From: a virus
IMG/VR virus record: IMGVR_UViG_3300025051_000004
Coordinates: 1 to 52,018 of that record
DNA length: 52,018 nt
Reading direction: 5' to 3' (one strand)
Shown: in pieces, positions 713 to 21,723 of the stretch
Layout of the letters: every line of letters starts with the position of its first letter
Position numbering within the stretch: the stretch's first letter is position 1
Program-made: the position numbers and the translations under genes
Notes under the pieces: model-generated
Seen by the model: the letters and a program-made list of their open reading frames with translations, nothing else
What the model was told of the DNA's origin: nothing
Databases searched by the model: none

Positions 713-3337
713 TTAATTCTCATTCAATGCATCTAATAATCCGCTTGTTGATACCCCAAGAGATGCTGCAACTTCTGCCTGAGTGTAACCTCTACTTAAC
801 ATTGCCCGAGCCTTATTAAGTTTGGTGGGGGAGAATGTGGAAGAAGTTCTTGGTGTTGCATATTGTTTAACTTGATCAAGGGGTGTATTATTTAAAATCT
901 GCATTAAGAAATTATGACTTATTGCACCAGCTTGTATAGCTTCCCATTCCTTTGGCGAGATATCAATGGCTGTCTTTTTTGCATATTTTCTATATCTAGC
1001 CTCGGCAAGAGCTCGTGTTTTTACTTTCTTTAACTGATCCTTTGTCATATCTGGATTCTGTGTTTGCTTAGTTCGAATTACATGATTCGCTAAAAGTTGT
1101 GCCTGTCGTTCCCTTGGTTTATTTCCTATCGCGATACTTAATTTAGCTTTCAGGGATTCGACTTGTGTGGCATAAGTTTGTTTAGCAGATGGAGAATATT
1201 CTAAACGGGGGGTATTAACAAACTGAAGTCGTGCTTTATCACCCATATTTTTCATACCATTCGCATATTCAGCATAAATATCTTCCATTCTGGTTCCGGA
1301 ACTAAGTTTACGAGCATCATCCTCTTCATACATTTTTGTAGATTTTATTTTCTTATCAATGAGTTTTCCTGTTTTTGGATCAACATACGATTCTGGCGTG
1401 GTTTTAAATATCTTTTTTCCTGTTTTTGGATCAATAGAATATTCTGAACTTCGTTTATCAACTCGAATTTCGGATGAGGCACGAGATATAATAGTTGATG
1501 CCCCTTTTCGGGATCCACCCTGATATATCTCTTTTAAATCAGAAATATTGTTATCAATATAAGACTGTTTGTAATTTAATCCGTGTTTTTCGGCATCAAT
1601 AATAACCATTGAATGACGAACAGCCCTTGCAATTTCATCTTGAGAAGCCCCTTTAATGGTCATATCAGTGATTAAATTTGATATTTTTCCCATCTCAGTT
1701 TGTTTGCTTGTTTCTGAAAGCCGTTTCATTCCAGGATATTCAGGATATGCCAGTTTCGGATCAAAATCCGCAAGGCCTTTAATTGATGGTGAGGTTTTAA
1801 CTTGACCCTTCCCATTCGGAATAACAAGAACTGTATCTCCATCAAAGTCGGCCCCAGACAGTTTCTTTGCAACGCTTGGATGAATTACAACCGCATCCAT
1901 AGCATTTCCAAATATCGATTTCATTCCAGCATCATTATTATTAACGGTTAATTGTGGAATTTCAAAGGTTCCACCATGTGGATGCCGAATCAGAACCACC
2001 CGTTCACCATTAACATAATTAGGCGCATATATTTCACTTGCTTTAATATCATTTGATGGAAGAATTACATAATTTCCTTGTCGTGGAAGGGCAGCAGCTT
2101 TAAGATCAACCGCGGCCGAATCACATTCATCCGCAAAGGTTTGTAACATTTTTTGTCGAACTGTCGGATTTGTTAGGGCTAAAATTTCATCAAATTCTTC
2201 TTGTTTTTGTTTTAAAGCTAAATCAAGTTGTTGTTTTGCTAATGATGGCCGTTGTTTTGATAACATTTGAGAGGAAAGGGTTTTTGACCAAGTTGTCCAA
2301 TCACCTTCTTCATTCACAATATTTATTGGAGAAAGCTTTTCAGTTCCATCAGTATCAATGTATGTTTTTTGTCTGAATATAGAGCCAAATGGATTATCGG
2401 GATCATCTTTAATAGGTTTCATTGCACCCATTTTTCCAACATCTTGACTCTTGTTAGTATTAAATATCACATCAACACCATCAGGCATGTCATCTGAATA
2501 TATGGCCATTCCTTTTAAAAAATGAGTACCATCAACTCCAATGCGAACTTGTGCATAACTTGCTTCACCTAAGGAAAGATCTGATTTTCCGCGTCGAAGT
2601 TCTATAACTCCATCTTTTGCTTCGCCACCATCTTCCCGATAGCGAATACTAATACGATCTGAGGATATAGGAACCGGATTCTTTAAACTTTCCCAGGTTC
2701 GACCACCATCTCGTGTCCAATCGGCAATCGTTTGAATTTTATCCTGATTAGCATAAATCTCTTTATAAGTTACATCATCTTTTGTTAAGACTTTTATGGT
2801 GGTTGGTTTACCGGTTCCGACTTGAGTAACATTCACATAACTAATTTTATATCCTTCTTTTTGGAGCTCGGCGATGGCTGTATCTAATTTATATTTAGAA
2901 ACACCGATTTGATTTTCAGCTCCCGCGCCGACATCTAAATATCGTTTATTCTCAATTTGAGCGCGGAGCATATCGGCAGTCCGTTCAGTGATTAAAGCTC
3001 GCTCTTGCATAACTGGATCCAGTAGATTTCTAACAGAACTCTCATTAATTCCCATGCGTTCACCAATCGCAACGTTAGAATATCCTTTATCTTTAAGGCG
3101 CAATGCTTGCGCTGCATCAGCTTTTCTTTGTTCGGATTTCTCTAACGAAACCTCAGCTCGAAGTTGTGTTGTGGATATCCCCAAACCATCTGCTATCTCT
3201 TTTTCACTCATGCCCTTTGCTTTTAACTCTTTGATATGTCCACGCAAAGATCTGTCTCGCTGTTGAGGGTCGTCACCACTACCCCAAGGATATCTTCCTG
3301 ATCTTCGAGGTGTACCATAATGCTTTAATTCGCTCAT
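713..3337 (-). CDS. Single-chain DPBB RNA polymerase-like protein with N-terminal tag
   Basis: This 874-aa protein carries ADFDGDTVLVIP at 496-507, the metal-binding DxDGD loop of the double-psi beta-barrel in RNA polymerase beta-prime, YonO-like phage polymerases and QDE-1-type RNA-dependent RNA polymerases. Upstream, RHPHGG (451-456) and VVIHPSVAKKLSG (483-495) fit the segment before the loop. Downstream, MGKISNLITDM (549-559) and HSMVIIDAEKHG (575-586) resemble the post-loop region of QDE-1/RDR proteins. HTH-like segments lie near 43-62, 84-106 and 848-871. The N-terminus (LKHYGTPRRSGRYPWGSG, 4-21) is a tag-like motif recalling those of proteins encoded beside the terminase. GGAGG precedes the ATG. 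The gene is the last large one in the replication/recombination cluster. The fold assignment is fairly confident; the template, primer needs and virion location are inference. Confidence 0.7.
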   Translation of the reverse strand: MSELKHYGTPRRSGRYPWGSGDDPQQRDRSLRGHIKELKAKGMSEKEIADGLGISTTQLRAEVSLEKSEQRKADAAQALRLKDKGYSNVAIGERMGINESSVRNLLDPVMQERALITERTADMLRAQIENKRYLDVGAGAENQIGVSKYKLDTAIAELQKEGYKISYVNVTQVGTGKPTTIKVLTKDDVTYKEIYANQDKIQTIADWTRDGGRTWESLKNPVPISSDRISIRYREDGGEAKDGVIELRRGKSDLSLGEASYAQVRIGVDGTHFLKGMAIYSDDMPDGVDVIFNTNKSQDVGKMGAMKPIKDDPDNPFGSIFRQKTYIDTDGTEKLSPINIVNEEGDWTTWSKTLSSQMLSKQRPSLAKQQLDLALKQKQEEFDEILALTNPTVRQKMLQTFADECDSAAVDLKAAALPRQGNYVILPSNDIKASEIYAPNYVNGERVVLIRHPHGGTFEIPQLTVNNNDAGMKSIFGNAMDAVVIHPSVAKKLSGADFDGDTVLVIPNGKGQVKTSPSIKGLADFDPKLAYPEYPGMKRLSETSKQTEMGKISNLITDMTIKGASQDEIARAVRHSMVIIDAEKHGLNYKQSYIDNNISDLKEIYQGGSRKGASTIISRASSEIRVDKRSSEYSIDPKTGKKIFKTTPESYVDPKTGKLIDKKIKSTKMYEEDDARKLSSGTRMEDIYAEYANGMKNMGDKARLQFVNTPRLEYSPSAKQTYATQVESLKAKLSIAIGNKPRERQAQLLANHVIRTKQTQNPDMTKDQLKKVKTRALAEARYRKYAKKTAIDISPKEWEAIQAGAISHNFLMQILNNTPLDQVKQYATPRTSSTFSPTKLNKARAMLSRGYTQAEVAASLGVSTSGLLDALNEN

Positions 3338-3341: not shown

Positions 3342-3899
3342 TTATTCCTCCGCTTTTAATATGTCCTCGATCCTCTGATCGAATTCTTTGATTTTAGCCA
3401 TAATATACAATATTTCTTCAGCTTCAGGATTATGGACTAGAACCTCATTATACTGATACAAACGCAATTCAATTTCAATATCAGTTGGTTGAATTCCATA
3501 TTCAAGACAAAATATAGCAGCATAAACCTCAAGTTGTTTAATAGAGGCTTTTGTGGTTCCGGTTTTTAAATCATGAATTCTTAGCATGTTATCTCGAAAA
3601 CTAATTGCATCGGCCGTTCCAAAACAATGGGGTGAAAAATATAAAACTTTTTCTGGTTCCATTTTATAACCAATACCATCATTAACGAACATATTAAGTG
3701 ACTTTGCAATTTTTGGCAGTTTTATGCGGTGTCCAATTAAGGAGGCCGCAATCTCATGAACTTCTACACCTTGTTGAACTGCCTGCCATGCTAAATATAC
3801 CCGCTCGAGTTTATCTCCATCATAATTTACCCAATGATATTTAGATGGAGAAAGAAACGCGTGTATTCCATTAAGTTTTGAGTGATCGTTCCATTTCAT
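3342..3899 (-). CDS. RecB/Cas4-like PD-(D/E)XK exonuclease
   Basis: The 185-aa protein has the RecB-nuclease pattern: a histidine in GVEVHEIA (about 44-51), GTADAISF (D97), RIHDLKTGT (D110 and K112) and the downstream glutamine in KQLEVYA (Q122). In this family these residues bind metal and cut DNA, usually as 5'-3' exonucleases in phage recombination or end processing. It overlaps the end of the VRR-NUC-like nuclease gene by 29 nt and is followed 4 nt later by the RNA polymerase-like gene, so all three are probably co-translated. It lies in the replication/recombination cluster, which supports a repair role. Confidence 0.75.
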   Translation of the reverse strand: MKWNDHSKLNGIHAFLSPSKYHWVNYDGDKLERVYLAWQAVQQGVEVHEIAASLIGHRIKLPKIAKSLNMFVNDGIGYKMEPEKVLYFSPHCFGTADAISFRDNMLRIHDLKTGTTKASIKQLEVYAAIFCLEYGIQPTDIEIELRLYQYNEVLVHNPEAEEILYIMAKIKEFDQRIEDILKAEE

Positions 3900-4256: not shown

Positions 4257-5447
4257 TTAAAGAGCAGTAAATCGATTTTCATTAAACTTTTTTTTCGTTT
4301 TCAATGCTTTATCAATTGCCAAATCAATAATGGATTTACTCATTAATTTGTAATAATATAAATCTGTAAACGGTGTATCTAATCGATCAATTCGGCCAGC
4401 AGCCTGAGTCATAATACGATACGAGTAATTTTGTGAAAAGAAGACTATTGTGTCGGTTTCGGTACAATTCCAACCTTCAGCTCCAGCCATATATTGAACA
4501 AAATATAACCATGAATCTGCAGATGGAACTAGATCGTGTTTGTGACCATTCCATTCACCACTAACAATATTATTTTTTTTCGCAAAATCTCTAAGAGTAT
4601 CTAACTCATAATTAAAATTATAAAAAACAATTAACTTGTGATGTCTGGTCCAAAGTGATTTAAGTTTGTCTAACCGGTCTGGATCAGAGTTTGCTAACTT
4701 CCGTAATAAATAGCACAGCTTTGAAATGTCACGAATTGGTTCGTTATCATAAATATCCCAGCGATTTGTCATCAGAATCTTTTGTTGAGTTTCATCAAAA
4801 TTACAAAATATAGTCTCATAATGAGATACCGTGTTGCGAATAAAGTGCATCTGAATGGTTACTAAATCCCGTAAATGAATTAATTTCGAAACTTGTAAAT
4901 ATCTTTCAACTTTTGGAAATTTGCTAAAACGACTATATACTACATGATTTCTAATAAAATCTGTTCTATTTTTATAAAAGCCATTAGCAATAAATACAGG
5001 AATTAGGTCCATCCAAGTATCGGCTGGAGTCGCACTTAATAAAATCCATTGATTTTTTTTAGTAATTTTTAAAAAGGATTTTACCCAAGTTCCTCCACCA
5101 ACAACACGCTGTTCATCAAATATAAAGAATGCATCTTCTACAGTTGTATACTTTTGAATATTATTCCAACTGTCAACCGCTGTTATTTCTAATGGAATAT
5201 GAACGGCCTCATCTATCCAATCCAATGTGTCTCGTTTTCTAGCTGTGGTAATGACGTAAAGTTTTTTGTTAATCTTCATTGGAGAGAATGAGTCGCCCTT
5301 ATGTCTAGGAATTTTGCCTTTCCCAACTTTTTCATAAAAATATGAAAGTGCAGTAAGGGTTTTTCCTGAGCCGACCCCACCAACAAGGATCGACCCAGGA
5401 CTTAATCTCTCTATGGCGTCAGATTGATGGTCATAGAGTCTAAGCAT
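4257..5447 (-). CDS. SF2 DNA helicase/translocase
   Basis: This 396-aa protein has the superfamily 2 motif series: a Walker A loop GGVGSGKT (23-30), a motif II variant FDEQR (110-114), motif III LLSATPAD (136-143) and motif VI QAAGRIDR (348-355). VFYNFNYEL (274-282) matches the motif IV region of SNF2/DEAD-type phage helicases. It is a compact core with no large extra domains. It would use ATP to move on or remodel DNA. It is encoded between the SSB-like protein (3 nt gap) and two nucleases, a layout typical of phage replication-recombination blocks. The exact substrate is not evident. Confidence 0.85.
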   Translation of the reverse strand: MLRLYDHQSDAIERLSPGSILVGGVGSGKTLTALSYFYEKVGKGKIPRHKGDSFSPMKINKKLYVITTARKRDTLDWIDEAVHIPLEITAVDSWNNIQKYTTVEDAFFIFDEQRVVGGGTWVKSFLKITKKNQWILLSATPADTWMDLIPVFIANGFYKNRTDFIRNHVVYSRFSKFPKVERYLQVSKLIHLRDLVTIQMHFIRNTVSHYETIFCNFDETQQKILMTNRWDIYDNEPIRDISKLCYLLRKLANSDPDRLDKLKSLWTRHHKLIVFYNFNYELDTLRDFAKKNNIVSGEWNGHKHDLVPSADSWLYFVQYMAGAEGWNCTETDTIVFFSQNYSYRIMTQAAGRIDRLDTPFTDLYYYKLMSKSIIDLAIDKALKTKKKFNENRFTAL

Positions 5448-5450
5448 TTA

Positions 5451-6002
5451 CTACTCTTCTATGATTAAACGACACGCACCATCACGATATTCATAACCTG
5501 GTGCACATACTGCCGCTTGTGCCGAATCTGGTGGATTAATATATTTCTTTTCCCATGGATCTTCCTGAAGAGTTACATACATCGTTTTTAAATATGCCTT
5601 AACTCCATCCTTACCATGAACATTATAATTATACGGTCTAACCGTTACATCGACTCGCTCAATATCCGCCCAATCTAAAATACTTACATCTTCTTCTCGT
5701 AAATTGGTTTGTTTTCCCTCGGAATTAACGAGAATAATCTTTGGTGGATAGTAACTATATTGAACCCGGATGGACAAAATTGGTTGTGCTTCTTCGGCCG
5801 GATCGCGTGGATCTAACCACCGAATGTTCCAGCCCTCTTCTTCTAATGCTTTTGCAACATTTATATCATCCAAAAAGACAACAAAATTCCGATTACCTTG
5901 TGGATTATATTGACCTTCCTTTCCTGAAAAGTTTCTGAAACCAATTCTTGCATTTGCAATATTAATGTTCTCTGTAACGCGTGGGGATTGTTTTTTAGCC
6001 AT
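5451..6002 (-). CDS. Probable single-stranded DNA-binding protein
   Basis: The 183-aa protein starts at the ATG at 6002 (MAKKQSPRVTENINIANARIG), with AAAGGAG seven bases upstream. A longer in-frame reading would overlap the polymerase stop and lacks a site. The pattern IGFRNFSGKEGQYNPQGNRNF, then ADIERVDVTVRPYNYNV and GVKAYLKTMYVT, looks like a beta-rich OB-type phage protein that I associate with SSB-like genes next to polymerases. The C-terminus carries two cysteines (CAPGYEYRDGAC) and the acidic end IIEE. Position between the replicase and the helicase supports the role. The family assignment is from memory. Confidence 0.55.
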   Translation of the reverse strand: MAKKQSPRVTENINIANARIGFRNFSGKEGQYNPQGNRNFVVFLDDINVAKALEEEGWNIRWLDPRDPAEEAQPILSIRVQYSYYPPKIILVNSEGKQTNLREEDVSILDWADIERVDVTVRPYNYNVHGKDGVKAYLKTMYVTLQEDPWEKKYINPPDSAQAAVCAPGYEYRDGACRLIIEE

Positions 6003-6015
6003 ATCTGTCTCCTTT

Positions 6016-9000
6016 TTATTTTTCGGCAAACTGTTCAAAGTCACCAAATTTATTAATTGTTTGAATAGCATCATCTACAAGCTCATTGAAATATCGATAG
6101 TCAATACTATTCTCTTTTTCTAAATTACTAACAACTTCGGCTTCAAGCCAACGGTATCCTTTTGTAGCACTTGCGGCATAATATTTATCATTGGTTTTGC
6201 GATATAAAAGACCACCGCCGCTACCATCCATCACTGGACAAAACTCACCAGCTCTTCCAACGAATCTATAATTATGTTCTTCTTCTGAAAGATTTTCATT
6301 CAAATCTAAATATAAAGCAGAATTTCCAGTAACAGTTCTAACTTCACATAAATCCTTAAATGTTAATGGTTCTTTACTAAATATAGTTTTAAAAACATAT
6401 GGATGCTGAAATTGTGCTCCTGTTGCGGTCCATTTTCCAATATTTGTCTTCTTGGTAGAATAAGCATATTTTGCTATATAAACGGCATCATTAACAAGAC
6501 AAATCTTTTCATATGTTGCTTCATGTTCAAAGTCATAACCATACTGTTTCGCAAAATCTTTACAGAAATTAATAATATATGAATCGGCATCTGGAATTTT
6601 TATTGAATCTGTCTTAATGTGTGCAACCTTATAACCCTGTTTTTGGACCGCATCTTGTAAAGTTCGCATAAATAAAGCGCCCCTTAATGCTACAATATTG
6701 TTGACATTTTTTGGGTGTTTCATAATATTTTCAAAACGAGCTGAAGTTAATCCATAAGTTGAATTCAAAGCAATCTTTAATGCATAAGACAAATCATCCA
6801 TAATCGAATCATCACTGACATACTTAAGAAGTTTTCCTCCAAATATATTTTTTAATGCCTCCTTATCTCCGTGTTTAATAGCAACGCGAGCATCTTTAAT
6901 ATCACTATATGCATTTGTATACTTTCCAAAATAATTCATTTGGATTAATGATGTGGGGTGCATAGATGCAATATCAATAAGAGCCACATTGTTATAAATG
7001 CCGGGTTCAGCATATACATACCCACCAAACCCAATATCATCACCACGGTAAATATTTCGAAATTGTTTACCATCAATCTGTTTCCATTCATAACCAGGAA
7101 ACGTTTCACTTAAATCTGTATACACGAGTTCTGGATTTTTATCCTCTCCAAATATAAGCCTCGTTACCAATTGATTTGTAGAATTATTAGGTGTCATCCC
7201 AGTTAATTCGGCCAGAATAAGACGGGCTGCCCAATCAGCTTTTCGATCCTGAAAAACGGCTTCCGTAATAATAACATCATTAACACAATATTCACCGGCC
7301 ATCTTCCATTTCTCTTCTGGTACTGGCTCATCCCATGGAAGCGCAAATTCATTATGATGCAAACCCAATTCAATCCCAAACTTTTTAAGACTTTGTTTTT
7401 TATTTGAAAAATCATAAACATCGGTATAAGATAAATTATACGCTTCTCTAAATAAATATTGTGTTCCATTGCTTGAGACAATATTACTACTTAAGTTAAA
7501 TAATTGTTCATTATTGTAACCAATGTAACGCGCATACAAAATATGATTGTCATACCTGCGATTATTAAATCCAATTAATTTAAATTTAAATAATTCTTCA
7601 ACATCTCTCGGTGCTGGATTTATCATAATAACCGGTTTATGATTATCACCCATGAATTTATACACAATTATAAATAAATTTGGAAAGACCTCAACATCAT
7701 AAAATACATAATTCTCATTATCATAATTACTTGATGGGGTGCTTTCGGCCGCAGATACAAATTTCATTTGGGATACTAAACCAACACAATATTCAGATTG
7801 ATTTGTCGAGTTCATAGCAAATGTGAGAATTCTTCCTCGCATATCATGAACATCATATATCAAACCAGAATCATATGTATCGTCCAATATCTTTTTAATA
7901 AAATCAATACTTGGTTTGGTTGCTGGGTGAATTTCTTTATTTAGATTTCTTATGATTAGATCACGCAGGGCTTTTTCTGTTTTAATTGCCTGCTGATTCA
8001 TCATCTTATTTACTCCTTTCTTTAAAGGCAAACCTGACGAAATATGAGCAATTGGTATCTCATTGCATAAACTTAATTGACGCCTCAAACTACTATTACC
8101 AACGAATACCTTAATCTCAATTCCTTCTTCATAAAGTCTGCTAAGTTGTTCAACATCACCATCATAAATATAATGAAGATGAACACCAGAACCACTCTTA
8201 CTAAATTCAGCATAAGTTTCGGGCCATTTACTAGCAGCTAATAAATTAAGATTCCGATCTTTTTCACCAATATCATTACGAAGATCAAAATCTATTACAA
8301 TATGATGCTTTTCGGGTTGTACATAATGTAATTTAGATGTATCCAAATCAGAAAGCTTTGTATTAACATTATCCCATTTCAAATATGGTATACCATACTG
8401 ATTAGCATATTGAGCAGGTCTATCAGCAAAATATGTATCAATAATAGAGACATTCTTATCTAAAACAAGTGTAGATAATTCTTCTGGTTCTGGTATTAAT
8501 GTGGCTCGACTATTATCGATTGAATCTGAATTAAAATTCCAATATACAGATCTCACAGCTTTACCATCTATTCTTTTTTGTTCAGCGTATTCCTTAAAAT
8601 AAGCTTTAAGTTCTTCACGAAAACTGTGTCTTGGTAAAATATATCCAACACCATTTTCTTGACAAAATTCCTTGTACATAGTATACGCTTGTTTCAATTG
8701 TAGAAAGTCTACATCATTTAGAAAGTAAAAATAATTTTCTTCAACAAAGTTAAATATAACATTTGTCTCAAACATCATCTCTTTTGGACGATAAGAATCA
8801 TAATATTTTTTTCCCATTTCTGTATAAATATCAATACACTTTTGAGCTATGGCACCCAATTCAAAATCTATTTGATCCATAACACTATCATATTCTTTTG
8901 GAGAAAGTCGACGACCACTTGGACGTACATCAATAAGTCGTCTTGTAATCCCGGATTTACTATCGGTAATTTTAACTGGTTGATTTGTTCCCATAAATAA

Positions 9001-9828
9001 AAAGCAATTAATCGGCATCGCATACTGGGATTTATGTTTTTCATTAATTATTACCTCTTCATGGGAGATAATAGAATTTAATGTACTATTATCACTAATC
9101 TTACTTAAATCACCATCATGCTGGATTGCAACTAGTGGATTATTCTTAAAAACCTCAGTTCCAAAAATGTTATTATTACCAACAAGTGCTTTGGCATTAA
9201 AGGTAATGTAATATCCTTGAACAAGTTTTTGTAAAATGTTTAAAAAGGTTGATTTACCACTACCAGCCTCTCCATAGAGAACACAAAACTTTTGAATCTT
9301 TTTACTATCACCAGTTAAAACCGCCCCAATAGACCATTCTAATTTTTGTCGTTCCTCATCATCATATAGAACGGACATTAAACGATCGTAACTTTTTGTA
9401 GATCCAGCCTCGAGAGAATATGGTAAATGATGAGTGGAATAGCTAGATTTTGTAACGCGGTCATTTGCAAATAAAATCTTATCATCAATTGGATGATAAT
9501 TATCAGGCATACTTTTTATGAATTTAATCCACTGGTTCCATACACCGCTAGAGTAACTAGCCAATGTTCGGATATTTACATTCTTTTCTTCTGGGTGATG
9601 CTTCTCCTTATACTCAAATAATTCTTTATCAACTAAACGAACTACTTCCATTTCATCCGTTAACCACTTACTCTGATCAGAATCCCAAATACCATAAAAT
9701 GAATGACCTCGGACCATTAGGTCTCGACTCTTACAAACCTTGAAATCTGGATAAATTTCAACCAAACCTGCTGGACGTGCTTTACTATTATTAATAGCTA
9801 CTTTTTCAACAATTTCTAAAAAATCCAT
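6016..9828 (-). CDS. Fused SF3 helicase / AEP-like primase / family B DNA polymerase
   Basis: This 1270-aa protein joins three replication activities. Residues about 150-350 are a D5-like SF3 helicase: Walker A GEAGSGKST (186-194), an acidic Walker B-like stretch near 232-241, sensor GTNQP (280-284) and an arginine-finger-like GITRRL (293-298). Residues about 500-600 resemble an archaeo-eukaryotic primase, with IDFDL (512-516) and SGSGVHLHY (545-553). Residues about 705-1270 are family B polymerase: exonuclease I DVE (711-713), exonuclease II NNRRYD (755-760), exonuclease III YCVND (847-851), motif A DIASMHPTS (952-960), motif B KIALNSTYG (1018-1026) and motif C KTDS (1072-1075). Helicase-before-primase is the reverse of the usual primase-helicase order. 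A strong AGGAGG-type site precedes the ATG, and the repeat-rich putative origin lies just upstream. Confidence 0.9.
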   Translation of the reverse strand: MDFLEIVEKVAINNSKARPAGLVEIYPDFKVCKSRDLMVRGHSFYGIWDSDQSKWLTDEMEVVRLVDKELFEYKEKHHPEEKNVNIRTLASYSSGVWNQWIKFIKSMPDNYHPIDDKILFANDRVTKSSYSTHHLPYSLEAGSTKSYDRLMSVLYDDEERQKLEWSIGAVLTGDSKKIQKFCVLYGEAGSGKSTFLNILQKLVQGYYITFNAKALVGNNNIFGTEVFKNNPLVAIQHDGDLSKISDNSTLNSIISHEEVIINEKHKSQYAMPINCFLFMGTNQPVKITDSKSGITRRLIDVRPSGRRLSPKEYDSVMDQIDFELGAIAQKCIDIYTEMGKKYYDSYRPKEMMFETNVIFNFVEENYFYFLNDVDFLQLKQAYTMYKEFCQENGVGYILPRHSFREELKAYFKEYAEQKRIDGKAVRSVYWNFNSDSIDNSRATLIPEPEELSTLVLDKNVSIIDTYFADRPAQYANQYGIPYLKWDNVNTKLSDLDTSKLHYVQPEKHHIVIDFDLRNDIGEKDRNLNLLAASKWPETYAEFSKSGSGVHLHYIYDGDVEQLSRLYEEGIEIKVFVGNSSLRRQLSLCNEIPIAHISSGLPLKKGVNKMMNQQAIKTEKALRDLIIRNLNKEIHPATKPSIDFIKKILDDTYDSGLIYDVHDMRGRILTFAMNSTNQSEYCVGLVSQMKFVSAAESTPSSNYDNENYVFYDVEVFPNLFIIVYKFMGDNHKPVIMINPAPRDVEELFKFKLIGFNNRRYDNHILYARYIGYNNEQLFNLSSNIVSSNGTQYLFREAYNLSYTDVYDFSNKKQSLKKFGIELGLHHNEFALPWDEPVPEEKWKMAGEYCVNDVIITEAVFQDRKADWAARLILAELTGMTPNNSTNQLVTRLIFGEDKNPELVYTDLSETFPGYEWKQIDGKQFRNIYRGDDIGFGGYVYAEPGIYNNVALIDIASMHPTSLIQMNYFGKYTNAYSDIKDARVAIKHGDKEALKNIFGGKLLKYVSDDSIMDDLSYALKIALNSTYGLTSARFENIMKHPKNVNNIVALRGALFMRTLQDAVQKQGYKVAHIKTDSIKIPDADSYIINFCKDFAKQYGYDFEHEATYEKICLVNDAVYIAKYAYSTKKTNIGKWTATGAQFQHPYVFKTIFSKEPLTFKDLCEVRTVTGNSALYLDLNENLSEEEHNYRFVGRAGEFCPVMDGSGGGLLYRKTNDKYYAASATKGYRWLEAEVVSNLEKENSIDYRYFNELVDDAIQTINKFGDFEQFAEK

Positions 9829-10104
9829 GTTCTTGTGAAGGCCTCCTTTCTTGAAGAGATGGTACTGTCACAATGTTGCATCTGTTTTTGCCTTTATTTA
9901 TATAATTTTTTTAAAAAAAATTTATAGCGTAAACTGAAATTAGCCGTGATTTTGTGACATTTCATACAAAATATAGCATTTTTCTTCAATTTACGGGTGG
10001 TTTTACCATCTTTTTAGTCAAGACGCTGTCACGGTTTTGTAGCATTTTTGCTTCTGTCACACTTTTAAAATGCTACATTTCAAAAAACGTGACAAAAAAC
10101 GTGA
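9829..10104. other. Putative replication origin / operator region with iteron-like repeats
   Basis: No gene fits here. TGTCAC or its complement GTGACA occurs at 9866, 9954, 10027, 10055 and 10089, with GTGACT at 10101. TAGCATTTTT occurs at 9974 and 10040, and the inverted TGCTACA at 10071. An AT-only tract of about 35 nt (9891-9925) could be a melting element. TGTCAC and TAGCATTTTT are paired 11-20 nt apart. Because it sits directly upstream of the replicase gene, it could be the origin, the operator/promoter of the replication operon, or both. Confidence 0.5.
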
Positions 10105-10638
10105 CTAATCTTCATAGTTTTTTGACAAATATAACATCATTTGATACCAAATCTCAACCTGATTTTGAGGCTGATGTATATTTCTTCTCCAGCCATGGAT
10201 TGGAAATATCCCTCCAAGGCCATTAGCAGAATATTTACGATCTAACCAATTCGTTAGTATCATATCGAGTTCATAGTTTTGCGCGTCCGTTAAAGCTGTA
10301 AAGTTATCGAACTTTAGTACACCTAAATTTCTTAACATTTCCCAAAATAAATCTACATAGGTCTCACTAAATCTTCCAGCATCTAACTGGTATTCCATTT
10401 TTCGACTCAGTGCTATTAACATTTCCAATATTCTACATGGTCCGAATTTATAGTCTGGTAAATCACTTGATTCATCTCGTAAGAATATACCATCTTTGGC
10501 TCGGTTTTGATCATTTGGTAATATACTGTAGTATTCTTTTTTCCATAGACGCTCTAAAAGAACTTCGAACTCGCTGCTATCTTCAATTCTAACCATCTCT
10601 TTAAGATGATTTAAATATCTTGTTTCTTCTTTGTTCAT
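10105..10638 (-). CDS. Conserved phage protein next to the origin (177 aa)
   Basis: I do not recognise a domain. The protein is helical and mixed-charge. Its C-terminal block, GLGGIFPIHGW followed by QVEIWYQMMLYLSKNYED, resembles hypothetical proteins encoded near replication genes in Firmicutes phages. The ATG at 10638 is preceded by an AAAGGAGG-type site. The gene ends inside the repeat cluster at 10101-10107 and precedes the fused replicase, so a role in initiation or in binding the repeats is possible but unproven. A hairpin terminator lies upstream at 10672-10696, suggesting the gene may start a new transcript. Confidence 0.6.
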   Translation of the reverse strand: MNKEETRYLNHLKEMVRIEDSSEFEVLLERLWKKEYYSILPNDQNRAKDGIFLRDESSDLPDYKFGPCRILEMLIALSRKMEYQLDAGRFSETYVDLFWEMLRNLGVLKFDNFTALTDAQNYELDMILTNWLDRKYSANGLGGIFPIHGWRRNIHQPQNQVEIWYQMMLYLSKNYED

Positions 10639-10671
10639 AGCGTGTTACAGTCCTCCTTTCTTTAGAGAAAC

Positions 10672-10696
10672 GAAAGGGGCTTTGTAGGCCCCTTTC
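10672..10696 (-). terminator. Hairpin terminator-like structure
   Basis: On the minus strand GAAAGGGGC and GCCCCTTTC flank a seven-base loop, followed by GTTTCTCT. The stem is strong but the T-tract is poor. It lies in the 76-nt gap after the acidic membrane protein gene and could partly separate the accessory operon from the replication operon. Confidence 0.6.
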
Positions 10697-10714
10697 AAAT
10701 ATAATTGGTTGCGA

Positions 10715-11521
10715 CTATTCATCCTCTTCATCAGCAAGCGGAATTTGATTATAAGCAACTTTATTGCTTTTCTTGCGTGTATAAGCTGCTTTCTTTTTTT
10801 CGCCTTTGCGCTTCAATTCCGCATCTGCTTGAATGAATTCGTCGCTCATTGTATCCATTGCTTCTTTTTGGCGAGCGATCTGTCGAAACCGTCTTTCCGT
10901 ATCAGTTTCCATCTTAATGGCAACCTCCTCATTATATGATTTACTTAATGAATGAATTTCATAATCGATTTCGAGTTGATCGTTTCTTACAAATGTCATT
11001 GTTTTCTTCTTTAGATCTTTAAGCCACTGCTCGCCAAGTTGATCTTCCGGATGAACATATACGCGATCATTTACATCACAAACAACATCATCAAAGCGAT
11101 AGTAATATAAATCAATCTTATCGTAATTGTTGTCAAAGATGAAATCCTCATATCCGATTAAAAATGGTTCCGGCTGCTTCTCGGGAAGTTCTTCTACTTG
11201 CTCTACTTCTTCTATCTCTTCTTCCGGTTCTTCTTCCTCATCATCTTCAAGAATATCTTTTGCGGTTGCTCGCCGAGCCACTTCGCTTGGACTTGGTTTT
11301 ACATATTCTCGTGCGAGTTTTCGATATGCCATTTTTTCATCGACTTCGGCCACTGCTTCTTCGGATTCATACTTCTTTTGGTAATAGGATTTAACGTCTT
11401 CAATTTCATCATGAGCAATTTCTTGCCAGTGTGCCTCGGCAATTTTACTTGCGATTAAATATCCAAGTCCGCCCCCAAGCGTGAATGCAATTGCAATTGG
11501 TAATAAAACTTTTTGTTCCAT
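10715..11521 (-). CDS. Membrane-anchored acidic phage protein (268 aa)
   Basis: The N-terminus (LLPIAIAFTLGGGLGYLIA, about 6-24) is one hydrophobic segment typical of a membrane anchor. A helical stretch, then a highly acidic low-complexity run (DEEEEPEEEIEEVEQVEELPE, about 93-113), a folded-looking middle part (FLIGYEDFIFDNNYDKIDLYYYR) and a basic coiled-coil-like tail follow. Similar single-anchor proteins occur in the accessory regions of Firmicutes phages without known function. It would sit on the inner membrane face with most of its mass in the cytoplasm, or outside if the orientation is reversed. It is followed by a hairpin terminator. Confidence 0.65.
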   Translation of the reverse strand: MEQKVLLPIAIAFTLGGGLGYLIASKIAEAHWQEIAHDEIEDVKSYYQKKYESEEAVAEVDEKMAYRKLAREYVKPSPSEVARRATAKDILEDDEEEEPEEEIEEVEQVEELPEKQPEPFLIGYEDFIFDNNYDKIDLYYYRFDDVVCDVNDRVYVHPEDQLGEQWLKDLKKKTMTFVRNDQLEIDYEIHSLSKSYNEEVAIKMETDTERRFRQIARQKEAMDTMSDEFIQADAELKRKGEKKKAAYTRKKSNKVAYNQIPLADEEDE

Positions 11522-11533
11522 TTTTATTCTCCT

Positions 11534-11776
11534 TTAGAATATAGCCCGGTTAATTGTTTCAACATAGGGATCAATTTTTATTTGTAAATCATTGGTTGGT
11601 GCCTTACGATAGGCTTTGAAGATTTCCATTAAACTTGGAAAATATTCGGTTTTTCCATGGCCTGCCACGCGCCACATTCTGCGATCCACCAAGGTTCCAC
11701 GATCAAGTTTGTAGCCCAATATACCCAAAAGTTTTACTAATAATGTTTTGGGTATGCGATGTTGGTGTCTTTTCAT
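11534..11776 (-). CDS. Small basic protein of unknown function (80 aa)
   Basis: No domain is recognised. It is basic at the start (MKRHQHRIPKTLLVKLLGILGYK) with WRVAGHGKTEYF in the middle, which suggests a small nucleic-acid- or protein-binding fold but does not identify one. Its start overlaps the stop of the preceding 61-aa gene as ATGA (11773-11776), so it is translationally coupled. An AGGAG-type site lies upstream. Confidence 0.55.
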   Translation of the reverse strand: MKRHQHRIPKTLLVKLLGILGYKLDRGTLVDRRMWRVAGHGKTEYFPSLMEIFKAYRKAPTNDLQIKIDPYVETINRAIF

Positions 11777-11958
11777 GCTTTCTTCTCCTCTATAAAATAG
11801 ATCATACTACGAACAATATCTAAAAGAATTTTAACAACGTCTTTAATAGATATCCCTCTTTCAATCGGAACATTCAATGATCGTTCTTTATCAAAATAAA
11901 ATGTTAAAGAATAACCCGAATCATTAATTTCATAAAGTGTGATTTTCTTTAAAATCAT
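11773..11958 (-). CDS. Small protein of unknown function (61 aa)
   Basis: No family is recognised. A beta-rich N-terminal half (ITLYEINDSGYSLTFYFDKE) is followed by a helical C-terminus (KDVVKILLDIVRSMIYFIEEKKA). The ATG at 11958 follows AAAGGAGAG and the end overlaps the next gene by 4 nt, so the reading is supported by context, not similarity. Confidence 0.5.
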   Translation of the reverse strand: MILKKITLYEINDSGYSLTFYFDKERSLNVPIERGISIKDVVKILLDIVRSMIYFIEEKKA

Positions 11959-11972
11959 GAAATCTCTCCTTT

Positions 11973-12260
11973 TTATACATAGTCATATTGTTCTCGATAT
12001 TCCCAATATATTTCAACTAATTCTACGTTATTGTTGTGAACACTTACATATTCATCTTTTAAATGATCTTGAATATGGGCTAAGATGGTTTCTCGTTGCA
12101 ATGCTGTAAATCCAAAATCTTTAAGATCAAAATGCTCTACACCATCTTCATCAAGCCATAGATTCACATCTCGTCTAAAATATACGGCAATACCACTATC
12201 GGGTGGATACAACGAATCAAACAACTTTGTTAACATAGCCCATATCTCCGCTTGGGACAT
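11973..12260 (-). CDS. Conserved small protein of unknown function (95 aa)
   Basis: No domain is recognised. The sequence is acidic and aromatic-rich (DLKDFGFTALQRETILAHIQDHL, VELVEIYWEYREQYDYV). The start codon overlaps the stop of the preceding gene as TAATG at 12260, the compact junction typical of this operon. It lies in the accessory block between the putative nucleotide enzymes and the replication genes. Confidence 0.55.
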   Translation of the reverse strand: MSQAEIWAMLTKLFDSLYPPDSGIAVYFRRDVNLWLDEDGVEHFDLKDFGFTALQRETILAHIQDHLKDEYVSVHNNNVELVEIYWEYREQYDYV

Positions 12261-12559
12261 TAATACCTTCTTCCCTTAATTTCAGGAAATAAGTTTTCTA
12301 TAAAGTCTTTAAAGCCATTTGGTTTAATAACTTCGCCATTAACTTTTTTATTAACTATTCTTCCAAAAGCTTTCCATTTGTCGGCTTGCTCTCGCAATGC
12401 AGCAAGTAGGCAAGAAGTACTTTCTGAATGCCGCATCTTGCAAATATCAACGGCTTCCTGCATCATATTAATAACAACCTGTTTTAAAGCGGCATTAACT
12501 TCATCATCGGTTGTTCTGCTGGAAGCTAAAAATGATTCTGCATACTCTTTAGCTTTCAT
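12260..12559 (-). CDS. Helical protein of unknown function (99 aa)
   Basis: The ATG at 12559 is chosen because GGGAG lies eight bases upstream; an upstream TTG at 12574 is in frame but encodes that ribosome binding site. The protein starts MKAKEYAESFLASSRTTDDE and is mostly helical and charged, with two cysteines (ICKMRHSESTSCLL). The C-terminus (NGFKDFIENLFPEIKGRRY) is basic. Function is unknown. It overlaps the end of the deoxyribosyltransferase-like gene by 11 nt. Confidence 0.55.
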   Translation of the reverse strand: MKAKEYAESFLASSRTTDDEVNAALKQVVINMMQEAVDICKMRHSESTSCLLAALREQADKWKAFGRIVNKKVNGEVIKPNGFKDFIENLFPEIKGRRY

Positions 12560-13022
12560 CTCTTTTTCTCCCAATTAAACTTAATTCCCGTAAGTATTCA
12601 AGACCTTCCCGCTCAGTTTCAAATATAACATCAGCCGCTTCGATGACAAATGCATGTCGATGAATATTATCTGCTTGCATAACTACAATAGTGTGTTTAC
12701 CAAGGTGATGAGCCCAAGCTAATTCCATCATAGAACCTATTGAAACGATTTCCTTTGACATAGTAAGATTACAATACAGAATATCGCTTTGTTGGACCAT
12801 CCATCTGTCTCGCTCTATGATTGCGTGGTTTGTAATGCGTGGATTTGAATCATAACCTTCGGCTTTAAATTCTACCTCGTTTCGAAACAATTTATCTTTT
12901 CCGATAAGAGGTGAATATACTATGTATCCAAGACCTTGCAATAGATACGCTGTTTGCTTAAAATACGTGAAAACTCCGTGTGTTGATTGCCCACTAATTG
13001 CACCAGCAATATAAATTTTCAT
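12549..13022 (-). CDS. Nucleoside 2-deoxyribosyltransferase-like protein
   Basis: The 157-aa protein begins MKIYIAGAISGQSTHG and contains RWMVQQSDILYCNL (about 73-86) and IGSMMELAWAHHLGKHTIVVM (about 95-115), the Rossmann-like NDT/DUF4406 layout. The glutamate in SMMELAWA is the expected nucleophile. Family members cleave or swap the base of deoxynucleosides; phage copies are often linked to nucleotide salvage or DNA modification. It is followed by small unknown genes and preceded by the DUF1599-like protein and the 5' nuclease, which together suggest nucleotide pool or DNA metabolism. Confidence 0.7.
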   Translation of the reverse strand: MKIYIAGAISGQSTHGVFTYFKQTAYLLQGLGYIVYSPLIGKDKLFRNEVEFKAEGYDSNPRITNHAIIERDRWMVQQSDILYCNLTMSKEIVSIGSMMELAWAHHLGKHTIVVMQADNIHRHAFVIEAADVIFETEREGLEYLRELSLIGRKRDES

Positions 13023-13034
13023 TCGTCTTTCTCC

Positions 13035-13496
13035 CTAACTTTTTCCTGGTGGTTCATATCGACCAAAGCGTTTATCTTCAGCAATTTCTTCTGCGGTTTT
13101 TTCTTTAGCAATTGGTAATGATGAATTTTTCCCACTCCCCCATGGATATCGTCCAGACGTTGGTTTTTCTTCTATTTCTGGTTGGGATGCTAATTCTTGT
13201 TGTTCATTATACAGACAAATAGCAATAAGAGAATATACTGACAAGTCCATCAACGTATCAATTATTGATTCGCCTACCTGATCGTTTGTTTCATCCTTGG
13301 CGAGATTTGTAATCCGGATAAATTTATCACTCATACGTACTAAGCATCCTTTAAATGCTGAAACCCCTATGGCTTCAGACATTCGAAAATTTGCCCATGG
13401 ATCTGACGATCCTTTTCCGGCATACCCATCATTTTTTCTTCGATGAAGATCACGAATATCGTCTAAGAGTTTAATAAATTCTTTACTTTCTGGCAT
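13035..13496 (-). CDS. DUF1599-like nucleotide-metabolism protein carrying a RYPWGSG tag
   Basis: The ATG at 13496 (MPESKEFIKLLDDIRDLHRRK) is preceded by AAAGGAG, whereas the longer in-frame reading overlaps the 5' nuclease. Residues 1-95 fit the DUF1599/Nmad1 helical fold: LHRRKNDGYAG (18-27), DPWANFR (32-38), VRMSDKFIRI (53-62) and ESIIDTLMDLSVYSLIA (76-92). Such proteins are tied to nucleotide modification or MazG-like hydrolysis. The C-terminal tail contains SGRYPWGSG (114-122), the same nine residues as near the N-terminus of the RNA polymerase-like protein. Finding a tag on a metabolic protein is unusual and suggests shared localisation or a shared partner. Confidence 0.65.
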   Translation of the reverse strand: MPESKEFIKLLDDIRDLHRRKNDGYAGKGSSDPWANFRMSEAIGVSAFKGCLVRMSDKFIRITNLAKDETNDQVGESIIDTLMDLSVYSLIAICLYNEQQELASQPEIEEKPTSGRYPWGSGKNSSLPIAKEKTAEEIAEDKRFGRYEPPGKS

Positions 13497-13552
13497 TTTA
13501 CTTCTCCTTTTAAATATGATTAGTCGCGGCAACTCCGCGAATCTTTTGGTGG

Positions 13553-14467
13553 TCATTTTCTATAGTAAGCAGCATAAAGCATCTTCATAGCCAATACAAT
13601 TTCATCATAAGCTTCTGTATCTTTACCATAGTACTTATAAATATAGTTTTCACTTCGACTTAATGTTAAATCAAATCGCAGTCGATCGCCGACATTTGGA
13701 ACATCTAGATTATAATCCAGTTCTATAAGGTCAAGGGCTTTTTGAAACTCGGGATCATCAAACGGAACCGTTCCTTCTAAAATATGTTTGCGCGCAGTAA
13801 CAGGACCGATTCCTTGAACTCCGCTAATGTCGTCCGACTTGTCGCCAACCATTGCTTTGTATAACGGATATTCCTTTGGTGCAAATCCGAATTCAACCTC
13901 AAAAAGTTTGGGGGTATAAAATACTCCAGGATTTTTGTAGACATAGCATCGTTTATACTTTAATAATTGATAAATGTCTTTATCGTTTGAGAATATAACG
14001 GTGGTTGTAGTTGTTGGTGAGGGTTCCATTCGCGGATCATCTAATTTACATACTGCGTTTGCAATACTGGCAATAACATCATCTGCTTCTGCACCATCCC
14101 GACTAACTATTCGGCTATCCATATCGTCTAGAATAAGAGCTAAAATCTTTCGAAAGTTCCTAAATATTTCGTGAGTTACAGGAATTCGCGTACTTTTATA
14201 GGTTTGATCGCGTTTGGTTCTTTCAAGTTTTTTTCGACTCTCTCCGGCAAATATAATTTCAACTGGAACCCCAGTGGGATTCGCTCGCTGAATACATAAC
14301 CGGAGAGAATCTAGAAAACGCAAAACCGGGAGCCATGGACGACCTTCAGATCCATTTAAACTACTAAAATATGATCTGTATAAAATGTTACTATAATCCA
14401 CTAATAGGAGAACCCTCTTCAACTCTTCGCCTTCTTCTAATGCTGGTAGGATTGGTGAGGGTTTCAT
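13553..14467 (-). CDS. FEN-like 5'-3' exonuclease
   Basis: The 304-aa protein has the PIN-like nuclease core and H3TH element of the polymerase I 5' nuclease family: LLVDYSNILYRSYF (21-34, D24), DGAEADDVIA (124-133), FSNDKDIYQLL (159-169) and VGDKSDDISGVQGIGPVTA (207-225). These acidic residues bind the two metal ions; the last motif grips duplex DNA. It would remove RNA primers and flaps. The usual polymerase part is absent, so it works with the separately encoded family B polymerase and DNA ligase. AAAAGGAG precedes the ATG. Confidence 0.9.
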   Translation of the reverse strand: MKPSPILPALEEGEELKRVLLLVDYSNILYRSYFSSLNGSEGRPWLPVLRFLDSLRLCIQRANPTGVPVEIIFAGESRKKLERTKRDQTYKSTRIPVTHEIFRNFRKILALILDDMDSRIVSRDGAEADDVIASIANAVCKLDDPRMEPSPTTTTTVIFSNDKDIYQLLKYKRCYVYKNPGVFYTPKLFEVEFGFAPKEYPLYKAMVGDKSDDISGVQGIGPVTARKHILEGTVPFDDPEFQKALDLIELDYNLDVPNVGDRLRFDLTLSRSENYIYKYYGKDTEAYDEIVLAMKMLYAAYYRK

Positions 14468-14478
14468 ATGTTCTCCTT

Positions 14479-15444
14479 TTACATAAGATCCAGAATTTCG
14501 CCATCAACATTAAAGTCTAAAAGAATTGCATTATCAACCTTAGATGACAAATACCCACCACGACTTGCAATCAGATCGTCAAGTTCAGGACCGAAGGAAA
14601 TATAATTATCACCAGCGCCATCCCAGACCCAACCAACCAACTGACCAGCCTTTGTTCGAGGAAAACCTAATTCATCATAGATATCGTTTAAAAATAGATG
14701 ACCACGTGCTTTTAAATGTTCGTTTGCCCACCGATTCTTAATAATTAAATTTGAAAGATTATAATCAAATTGAGGACACCATTGGCTACTACCAGTATAG
14801 GTTCCGGTTTCAGTATCGTATTCTTGCTCAGCAAACATTCGAGCATACATACTTGCCGGTTTTCCATTTCTTAGACGTTGAACTTGAATTGTCTTTTTAT
14901 GAACTTTTCCATCTTCATCAACAACATCGACTTTAGCTTTTTCATATACAGTGTCATAAGCAAAATGGAATTCCTGTTCTTCACCGAGTTCATCAGCAAC
15001 GCGTTTCCTATATGCACCAAAGGCTTCCTGAGCCATTTTATAAGCACCGGCAAGAGCTACATTTCGTTTCGTTAAAATATGTTGTCCTCCAAGTAAACAT
15101 CCAATGGACGCTGTTCCTAATAAAGCTACAGGCCAATATGCTTTTCCCAGAGACTTCGCTGTATGAAAATATGTTTGAATTGTATCTTTTCGTGCATCGG
15201 CTTCCGTATAATCTGGAGCATGTTCGGTTTTTGCTCGTTCTACGGCACTTAACATTTGATTATGACTTTCAATAATACCGGGCGCATGTTTATATGTTTT
15301 TGTTGCTACTAATATAACCGTTGCAATAACACCTCCAGTACCAACCACCGCCAATATAGTCGGGGCATGTTTTCCCAGTTTTAACAAAGCTCTACTACCA
15401 TGCTTTGTTACTTTGACTCCTAAATTACTAACTAATTCGTTCAT
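14479..15444 (-). CDS. DUF6353-like membrane protein (copy 1)
   Basis: The 321-aa protein has a hydrophobic stretch at about 27-50 (HAPTILAVVGTGGVIATVILV), another near 103-123 (YWPVALLGTASIGCLLGG), and the soluble pattern KRNVALAGAYKMAQEAFGAYRKRVADELGE that I associate with DUF6353 proteins of Firmicutes phages. The C-terminal half is soluble. Function is unknown; two membrane segments place it in the cell membrane. A second, shorter relative lies at 22796-23527. A structured leader (15473-15596) lies upstream. GGAAGGAG precedes the ATG. Confidence 0.65.
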   Translation of the reverse strand: MNELVSNLGVKVTKHGSRALLKLGKHAPTILAVVGTGGVIATVILVATKTYKHAPGIIESHNQMLSAVERAKTEHAPDYTEADARKDTIQTYFHTAKSLGKAYWPVALLGTASIGCLLGGQHILTKRNVALAGAYKMAQEAFGAYRKRVADELGEEQEFHFAYDTVYEKAKVDVVDEDGKVHKKTIQVQRLRNGKPASMYARMFAEQEYDTETGTYTGSSQWCPQFDYNLSNLIIKNRWANEHLKARGHLFLNDIYDELGFPRTKAGQLVGWVWDGAGDNYISFGPELDDLIASRGGYLSSKVDNAILLDFNVDGEILDLM

Positions 15445-15472
15445 GATTCTCCTTCCGGTTAAATATAACTCT

Positions 15473-15596
15473 TTACAAAGGTATGAAAAAACATAAGAGA
15501 TGGGCGATCTTCCTAGTTAGTCATTTAAATATGACAATACCTGGTTGATATCTTTCTTCCCAATGGAACCCATCTCTCTCATAATACCCTTTGTAA
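15473..15596. other. Structured leader between the 52-aa gene and the DUF6353-like gene
   Basis: Nested inverted repeats can fold this spacer: outer TTACAAAGGTATG (15473-15485) with CATAATACCCTTTGTAA (15580-15596, small bulges), inner AGAGATGGG (15496-15504) with CCCATCTCT (15569-15577), and a small hairpin GTCAT/ATGAC (15520-15535). It lies in the 5' leader of the DUF6353-like gene and downstream of the 52-aa gene. A processing, attenuation or stability role is possible. It lacks tRNA features. Confidence 0.45.
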
Positions 15597-15609
15597 TTCT
15601 TGCGAAATT

Positions 15610-15768
15610 TTACTCGCTTTCTTTTTTGTCTTCTTTCTTTTTTGGTTTTTCTTCTCGTTCAGGTTGAACACCCCATCTGAGATTTCGCTTACCCATTTTA
15701 TCCAATTCCTCCCCCAATTCTGGATTTATTTTTTTTAACTTATTCTTAATATATACTTGGTTTGGCAT
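15610..15768 (-). CDS. Small lysine-rich protein (52 aa)
   Basis: A short frame starts at the ATG at 15768 with GGAGGG five to six bases upstream and ends at TAA (15610-15612). It begins MPNQVYIKNKLKKINPEL, has MGKRNLRWGVQPE in the middle, and ends in a lysine/glutamate-rich tail (PKKKEDKKESE). RWGV faintly resembles the KWGVR core of the tags in this phage, which may be coincidence. The good ribosome binding site and fit between neighbours support it. Function is unknown. Confidence 0.55.
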   Translation of the reverse strand: MPNQVYIKNKLKKINPELGEELDKMGKRNLRWGVQPEREEKPKKKEDKKESE

Positions 15769-15779
15769 TTACCCTCCGT

Positions 15780-16109
15780 TTATTGTTCCAAAGAATTTGA
15801 AATAGACTCTACAGTCTTAATGATTAAATAACACATTGAATCAACCCGATCTAATAGTATTTTAGCAAAGTTTTTTCGTAAGTGGGCCTCATCTGGAGCA
15901 AAAAGTTGTTCAAAGGTTTCCGTTTCTAAAAGAGGAATAAGTTTTGCATTCATAGCATCAACAACCTGAACAAGGCGTTTTATACTTGTGTTCAGTCTAT
16001 CCGTAACAGCTAGAAGTTCCCGTTTTCTAGCAATTGATTCCTCATAAGCAGCATGATCAACGGCTTCGGTAATCTTATCTTTCGTTGGATCATTATTACT
16101 TTCTGTCAT
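15780..16109 (-). CDS. Helical phage protein, tandem paralogue A (109 aa)
   Basis: The C-terminal 75 residues (RLVQVVDAMNAKLIPLLETETFEQLFAPDEAHLRKNF) align with the next gene upstream (RLDSIVGEMNVKLTPLMDIEVYEKVLAQDEGALRKEY); both end in an ESIS[ND]xL[EQ]-type helix. Such coiled-coil-like proteins suggest a self-assembling or scaffold role, but no family is recognised. The N-terminal part is unrelated between the two copies. The genes are 11 nt apart, consistent with tandem duplication and divergence. Confidence 0.6.
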   Translation of the reverse strand: MTESNNDPTKDKITEAVDHAAYEESIARKRELLAVTDRLNTSIKRLVQVVDAMNAKLIPLLETETFEQLFAPDEAHLRKNFAKILLDRVDSMCYLIIKTVESISNSLEQ

Positions 16110-16120
16110 TTGGACCTCTA

Positions 16121-16507: not shown

Positions 16508-16509
16508 TT

Positions 16510-17826: not shown

Positions 17827-17847
17827 GACTTCCTCCTTTAAATATGA

Positions 17848-18287: not shown

Positions 18288-18300
18288 AATAAACTCCTTC

Positions 18301-18744: not shown

Positions 18745-18771
18745 TTCCTTTTCCTTTCAGAATATAGTATT

Positions 18772-18972: not shown

Positions 18973-18973
18973 C

Positions 18974-19243: not shown

Positions 19244-19244
19244 T

Positions 19245-19895: not shown

Positions 19896-19913
19896 ACTAA
19901 TTATCCTTTCTAT

Positions 19914-20810
19914 TTAAGTGTTTGATACAACAATTCGTTTAAAGATTGGCATACTTAATGAAATATGTCCGTTACCTCTTTTAGTCATACTAAAAGCTTC
20001 TATTTCTATAAGCCTGCCTATTGGCGGATCTTTAGCAAATATCTTTCGTTCTTCATCCGTAAAACCAGATCCAACCCGTACCGGAACTGTACAACCATTA
20101 ACGTCACAGATAAGAGCAGATATCCCTCCTACAATCTTTGTTTCGGCCCCGGCTAATTCAATATCAATAACCCGTCCAATAAATTCCTCAATTCGTTTAA
20201 CTTTAATTAACTCTTTGCTCCGACCAGGAATATATGGAGCATCAAGATTCATAAGCATGAGACCTTCTTTTTTTCTTGCTGTCATTTTGTTCATTAAAGA
20301 TCGAAGAGTTTTTAAATCGTTTCCAACTAGAGTTCCGTATGTAGTTACCATTTGGATCGGCCAAGTTTTTGGAACTGAACTAAATATGGTTTGTAATAAC
20401 CTATCTCTGTCTTCTCCTTTTGTTAAGTCTCCGTCCGGTTTAAATATATCAAAACAAATAGCAATTAAATCTGTTTTGTTTTTTATGAATTGTTGTGAAG
20501 CTTTCGCAGCTGTAGTATTTCGTATGACATAACTTTCTTCTTCCAAAAAATAAGAACCTGAATCAACTAATTCCGTATCATAAACATAATTAGATGGAAA
20601 ACGGGGATCTTCTAATCGTTTTGTAATATGAGTCAACCATAGATCTGCCTTTCCACTTCTAGTATAACATCGAACGGTTCCATCGTGAAATTTGAAGAAG
20701 AGGCGACGAACGCCATCAATTTTTTCACTAATACGCCACTTTTTATTAGTCAAAATATCTTTACTGGAATAGTCTTTCAGATTAATTCCGAGAGCTGGAC
20801 TGACTTCCAT
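19914..20810 (-). CDS. ATP-dependent DNA ligase
   Basis: The 298-aa protein has the nucleotidyltransferase motif series: motif I EKIDGVRR with lysine K30 as the adenylated residue (29-36), motif III-like VYDTEL (76-81), motif IV EGLMLM (182-187) and motif V IKVKR (202-206). A short OB-like C-terminal domain follows. Phage ligases of this size seal nicks left by the FEN-like nuclease during lagging-strand synthesis and recombination. The N-terminus lacks large extra domains, so this is a minimal ligase. GGAAGGAG lies upstream of the ATG. Confidence 0.9.
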   Translation of the reverse strand: MEVSPALGINLKDYSSKDILTNKKWRISEKIDGVRRLFFKFHDGTVRCYTRSGKADLWLTHITKRLEDPRFPSNYVYDTELVDSGSYFLEEESYVIRNTTAAKASQQFIKNKTDLIAICFDIFKPDGDLTKGEDRDRLLQTIFSSVPKTWPIQMVTTYGTLVGNDLKTLRSLMNKMTARKKEGLMLMNLDAPYIPGRSKELIKVKRIEEFIGRVIDIELAGAETKIVGGISALICDVNGCTVPVRVGSGFTDEERKIFAKDPPIGRLIEIEAFSMTKRGNGHISLSMPIFKRIVVSNT

Positions 20811-20856
20811 CGCCTCGTCTCTCCTTCCTTTTTAAAGTTATAAAGAGAATGTGGAG

Positions 20857-21030: not shown

Positions 21031-21046
21031 GTTTAATCTCCTTGTT

Positions 21047-21229: not shown

Positions 21230-21230
21230 G

Positions 21231-21713: not shown

Positions 21714-21723
21714 TGAATATTAA

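Follow-up and report, generated by a model that had tools for sequence, protein, structure and literature searches.

Can a single viral polypeptide unwind DNA, prime it and extend the primers? The question is raised by one gene in the window, by which is meant the whole stretch of DNA analysed here, a linear virus record of 52,018 bases that may be incomplete. A preliminary description had noted motifs of a superfamily 3 (SF3) helicase, a primase of the AEP type and a family B DNA polymerase (PolB) with proofreading motifs in one 1270-residue frame, the primase following the helicase rather than preceding it. The observation of helicase, primase and polymerase in one protein is confirmed. Judged from sequence, predicted structure and analogy, the protein is homologous to GP55 of Lactococcus phage 1706 and very probably acts as principal replicase in a siphovirus-like phage, where it would serve as unwinder, primer and proofreading extender. 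Architecture and activities are already published for that homologue, and the window protein is a further divergent member.

The gene and its domains

The gene lies on the minus strand, which the preliminary description had left unnamed while giving interval and length correctly, and runs from an ATG at 9828 to a stop codon at 6016-6018. Its parts, and what identifies them, are as follows.

6016..9828 (-), whole replicase gene, 1270 amino acids plus stop (open reading frame, PHROG, tblastn, GP55 alignment)
8522..9828 (-), SF3/D5-type helicase, residues 1-436 (Pfam, structural matches, conservation)
8018..8451 (-), AEP (PriS-like) primase fold, residues 460-604 (AlphaFold2, NrS-1 match, conservation)
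7757..7992 (-), helical domain equivalent to the GP55 aHD, residues 613-691 (predicted helices, residue mapping)
7220..7719 (-), 3′-5′ exonuclease part of PolB, residues 704-870 (conservation, structure, phrog_1252)
6016..7218 (-), polymerase part of PolB, residues 871-1270 (Pol II match, structure, conservation)

The surrounding stop-to-stop frame comprises 1283 codons with no internal stop, and a match to PHROG 4210 ("DNA polymerase", E 0) spans residues 1-1269. Among 104 other loci, from 14 named phages and 90 IMG/VR loci with a few contigs represented twice, 101 carry the replicase as a single unbroken frame, and the remaining three (L010, L011, L088) start at a contig end. The intact frame and this comparison exclude a missed stop, a frameshift or a split gene, and the single 1270-residue frame stands.

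A published homologue

GP55 was described as a "four-in-one replicase" by Zhang, Lu, Zhu and Huang (NAR, June 2025; PMC12205980), the sole description of this architecture found in a literature search that covered mainly papers outside subscription. According to that paper, GP55 consists of a helicase, a PriS-like domain, a new helical domain (aHD) without homology to HBD, and a PolB; polymerase, 3′-5′ exonuclease, UTP/dTTP-dependent helicase and RNA primase activities were measured, with RNA priming preferring GTP and occurring at 5′-CCAAC-3′. The paper also reports that GP55 dimerises, that primase and polymerase can act in trans, that the aHD is required for priming, and that more than 1000 homologues were counted.

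Alignment of GP55 with the window protein is colinear from end to end, with 491 of 1327 positions identical (37%), and K189, D509, D712, E714 and D949 of GP55 correspond to K192, D515, D711, E713 and D952 of the window protein. The position of the AEP domain after the SF3 domain is as first described, although the arrangement was already in print for GP55, and the proposal that one protein could unwind, prime and extend gains support from the biochemistry reported for this homologue (PMC12205980). From the shared sequence and by analogy, we infer that the window enzyme acts as GP55 does; at 37% identity, it may well favour other nucleotides or other priming sites.

Enrichment of the GP55 priming site in the window was considered and rejected: CCAAC occurs 128 times, compared with 73 times in dinucleotide shuffles, yet the window's own tetramer frequencies predict 127.9. 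The word ranks 508th of 1024 pentamers in the window, 668th when the gene at 46731-48629 is left out, and 650th among pentamers in phage 1706. Within that 632-residue open reading frame, the CCAAC positions in the segment 46996-48043 (-) show short words that recur at intervals which include 69 and 141 bases, suggesting an in-frame repeat.

Helicase region

Residues 1-436 have the features of an SF3 helicase, as first noted. Pfam DUF5906 matches residues 184-297 (E 1.2e-13) and Pox_D5 matches residues 356-429 (E 2.8e-5), and the NCBIfam model for the C-terminal helicase region of P4-type primases scores E 4.8e-17, under its curated cut-off. In the predicted structure, residues ~1-436 match the SaPI5 primase-helicase at Z 18.1 and poxvirus D5/E5 at Z 15-17. 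Together with this fold, the SF3 motifs are present as a Walker A at 186-193 (G186-K192), a Walker B region at 234-240 (D238/D240), a sensor 1 asparagine (N282) and an arginine finger (R296/R297).

AEP primase and helical domain

The AEP domain in the middle of the protein was the only part in doubt. Taken by itself, the window protein gives no Pfam match there, neither to Prim-Pol nor to AEP-TOTE, and a PF09250 search of its own genome was likewise negative; weak matches of the window protein to PHROG primase families fall at residues ~505-575. Across relatives, Prim-Pol is weakly matched by 54 of 76 and AEP-TOTE by 11 of 76 (best E 0.0027). When PDB sequences were searched with a profile of this region, just two weak matches came up, with E values of 0.14 and 1.1, to a lactococcin immunity protein.

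The AEP-like primase between helicase and polymerase nevertheless emerges from structure prediction, which had been proposed together with a domain search and which settles the fold where sequence by itself is thin. An AlphaFold2 model of residues 440-705 with 75 relatives reached a pLDDT of 91.5, and all ten Foldseek matches with E < 0.001 were AEP primase-polymerases, pRN1 ORF904 and NrS-1. VIA-align superposed the NrS-1 prim-pol domain at Z 9.7 (rmsd 3.4 Å, 137 aligned residues) on model residues 21-165, corresponding to protein residues 460-604; other AEP primases (pRN1, CAPP and the LigD polymerase domain) followed at Z 5.5-6.7, with a Helicobacter protein likewise at Z 6.7. Absence of an AEP fold is ruled out by these clear structural matches. 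Along with the fold, the characteristic residues of the AEP superfamily are found: D513 and D515, which we take to be the metal-binding aspartate pair; SGSGVH ending at H550, presumably the SxGxH-type histidine motif; and E571, presumably the third acidic residue.

The preliminary description had the domains and their order right but overlooked the helical domain after the AEP fold, which GP55 needs for priming. The predicted model places helices at 618-629, 637-654, 661-672 and 678-687, forming a four-helix segment (618-687), and Y658 and F670 map to Y655 and F667 of GP55. The structural matches listed for this domain are helical proteins of other kinds.

Polymerase, exonuclease and motif C

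Assignment of the C-terminal half to a family B polymerase with proofreading motifs likewise proved correct. The exonuclease motifs are D711/E713 (motif I, DxE), Y759/D760 (motif II) and Y847/D851 (motif III, Y-x(3)-D), and phrog_1252 matches the exonuclease side at residues 692-899. Polymerase motif A contributes D952, and motif B contributes K1018, N1022, Y1025 and G1026. E. coli Pol II matches residues 935-1076 (E 1.9e-6, under the NCBIfam cut-off), residues ~704-1160 of the model match family B polymerases (archaeal PolB, Pol alpha) at Z ~15, and Foldseek with the model of residues 1-1200 gave E values down to 2.5e-14.

Motif C departs from the family pattern. Its usual form is DTDS, and both aspartates are usual without being strictly defining. 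In the window protein it is KTDS (residues 1072-1075; residues 1069-1077 lie at window 6599-6624, -), with lysine in place of the first aspartate (K1072-T-D1074), and all 89 members, GP55 among them, have the same four residues. Since GP55 is active, KTDS does not abolish polymerisation, and the PolB classification is kept because the fold and the other motifs fit. No statement on KTDS was found in the main text of PMC12205980, figures apart, and "ktds" was absent from the further literature matches listed. The stand-alone PolB of Enterococcus phage IME196 has NTDA at this site, so loss of the first aspartate may, on sequence grounds, extend beyond the GP55-type family; PMC10590003 is a paper on a stand-alone Enterococcus phage PolB. 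A fixed functional change across the whole family, such as acceptance of the very short RNA primers of its own primase, is a tentative explanation for the lysine, and rather doubtful as against neutral drift.

Residues 1-1200 were also modelled as one chain with 43 relatives (pLDDT 80.9; pTM 0.46, moderate), and because of this low pTM the relative placing of the domains is not fixed by the model. Low-confidence linkers appear near residues 440-451 and 604-613, which would suit a fused protein that is cut after translation into helicase, primase and polymerase, but we consider such processing extremely improbable: GP55 was purified and active as a full-length chain, and its domains are interdependent, with unwinding dropping when the polymerase is missing (PMC12205980).

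Conservation and distribution

Conservation was assessed with 102 sequences including that of the window, drawn from ten loci that encode the single protein, from the top 80 of 378 relatives by profile and from 14 named phage records, and reduced to 89 after members at least 90% identical were dropped. These are 39-77% identical to the window protein and form a biased set, gathered largely by polymerase-part patterns and ranked by similarity, a procedure likely to pass over members from which a domain has been lost. Equivalents of the five GP55 catalytic residues (K189, D509, D712, E714, D949) are invariant across all 89 members, as are D513, D515, H550, E571, R582 and R583 of the AEP domain. 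At the position of GP55 Y655, 85 members have tyrosine and four phenylalanine, and at that of F667, 88 have phenylalanine and one leucine. All four domains, their order and the catalytic residues are shown by sequence and predicted structure to be intact in the window protein.

Nonsynonymous divergence from the two relatives L004 and L005 (77% and 76% identical) was 0.12-0.24 in all five regions, against synonymous estimates of 1.07-2.19, one of them saturated; three of the five synonymous estimates against L006 were saturated. By tblastn, 405 of 50,697 phage records match, and at least 252 carry the whole protein (at least 80% of its length), often under the annotation "DNA primase/polymerase"; among the matches listed, the rest are partial and mainly stand-alone PolB of Enterococcus phages. 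These 405 records and the several-fold deficit of nonsynonymous relative to synonymous change across five regions exclude a chance match. Occurrence of the AEP and helical domains as a separate unit outside the replicase was considered and rejected: as a query on their own they gave 253 of the 50,697 records at 80% coverage or more, against 252 for the whole protein, so that the two totals agree. A further 23 records match a shorter part of this query, and five short ones among the matches listed are from Microbacterium phages (23% covered, E 0.07-0.5). A megablast search with window positions 5000-25000 found no DNA-level relatives among named phages.

Genome context

The other genes are siphovirus-like and include those for a terminase, portal, maturation protease, head protein, tape measure and distal tail protein; the large terminase shares up to 79% identity with those of Streptomyces and Rhodococcus phages, and G+C is ~34-39%. 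The replicase has the following replication neighbours.

5451..6074 (-), putative phage ssDNA-binding / single-strand annealing protein (PF24083, E 1.5e-53; PHROG 4787)
4257..5447 (-), DEAD/ResIII-type helicase (Pfam, PHROG)
3342..3899 (-), exonuclease (PHROG 3953)
13553..14467 (-), 5′-3′ exonuclease, candidate RNA-primer remover (PF02739, E 4.2e-22)
19914..20810 (-), ATP-dependent DNA ligase, candidate fragment sealer (PHROG 114, E 2e-45)

The listed start of the ssDNA-binding gene (6074) overlaps the final 59 bases of the replicase gene (6016-6074, -), and its true start may lie further downstream. PHROG 2152, of unknown function, occurs twice, at 14479-15444 (-), which also matches DUF6353, and at 22796-23527 (-). 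DnaB, DnaG and family A polymerase had no match elsewhere in the 52-kb record, which fits a role as main replicase, as weak evidence because the linear record may be incomplete.

Beside the replicase, 713-3337 (-) encodes an 874-residue protein with helix-turn-helix matches at both ends, an ADFDGD motif and a match to PHROG 4291, "RNA-dependent RNA polymerase" (E 0); it looks like what we take to be a single-chain two-barrel RNA polymerase. Its DxDGD-type motif within the same gene cluster, and the fact that no part is harder to recognise by sequence than the AEP, would be compatible with an AEP domain that is a relic or a DNA-binding scaffold, priming being left to the host or to this RNA polymerase-like protein. 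That account is highly unlikely given the invariance of the six AEP residues, the retention of the helical residues that GP55 requires, the purifying selection on the AEP region, and the priming of GP55 through its own AEP domain (PMC12205980).

A replicase that does its own priming would operate in a few steps. The N-terminal SF3 helicase would open the duplex and aid strand displacement, the AEP domain and its helical partner would make short RNA primers, which the C-terminal family B polymerase would then extend and proofread; the adjacent ssDNA-binding protein, the 5′-3′ exonuclease and the ligase are candidates for finishing the lagging strand. A single chain with helicase, primase and polymerase amounts to a minimal replisome and might be put to use in primer-free DNA amplification, a case already made for GP55. 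What the present comparison contributes is that the four-domain layout and all the catalytic residues checked in GP55 are kept over 89 non-redundant sequences, so that the GP55 activities are probably shared by phages that infect many different hosts.

Comparison with known systems

In known primase-helicases the primase usually comes first, a point made in the preliminary description that agrees with the chain numbering of NrS-1 (prim-pol ~1-176, helicase 305-718) and of the poxvirus D5 type (primase match ~7-201, helicase 323-785). The NrS-1 primase-polymerase (6a9w, 7rr3) has the AEP fold in common with the window protein (Z 9.7) and an SF3-type helicase on the same chain, but its AEP domain lies ahead of the helicase and a PolB is lacking. 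pRN1 ORF904 shares the AEP fold (Z ~6.7); it also has AEP before helicase and is not known to carry a PolB. The poxvirus D5/E5 and SaPI5 primase-helicases share the helicase fold (Z 15-18) and the Pox_D5 domain and, unlike the window protein, have no polymerase domain; their primase part, where present, is N-terminal, as the chain numbering also indicates. The stand-alone PolB of IME196 is a distant homologue (~25% identity over 685-1087) with motif C NTDA and neither helicase nor AEP within the 730 residues examined.

Closer relatives extend over the full length. By tblastn, the "DNA primase/polymerase" proteins of Gordonia, Arthrobacter, Streptomyces, Rhodococcus, Curtobacterium and Microbacterium phages are ~45-53% identical, a range that includes the "helicase/polymerase" of Faecalibacterium phage FP_oengus, and their annotations usually give one or two functions only. 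GP55 (YP_001828703) differs in its length of 1317 residues, with an insertion near the C-terminus, and is the protein on which the activities were measured; with it the window protein shares four domains in the same order, seven mapped functional residues and the KTDS motif.
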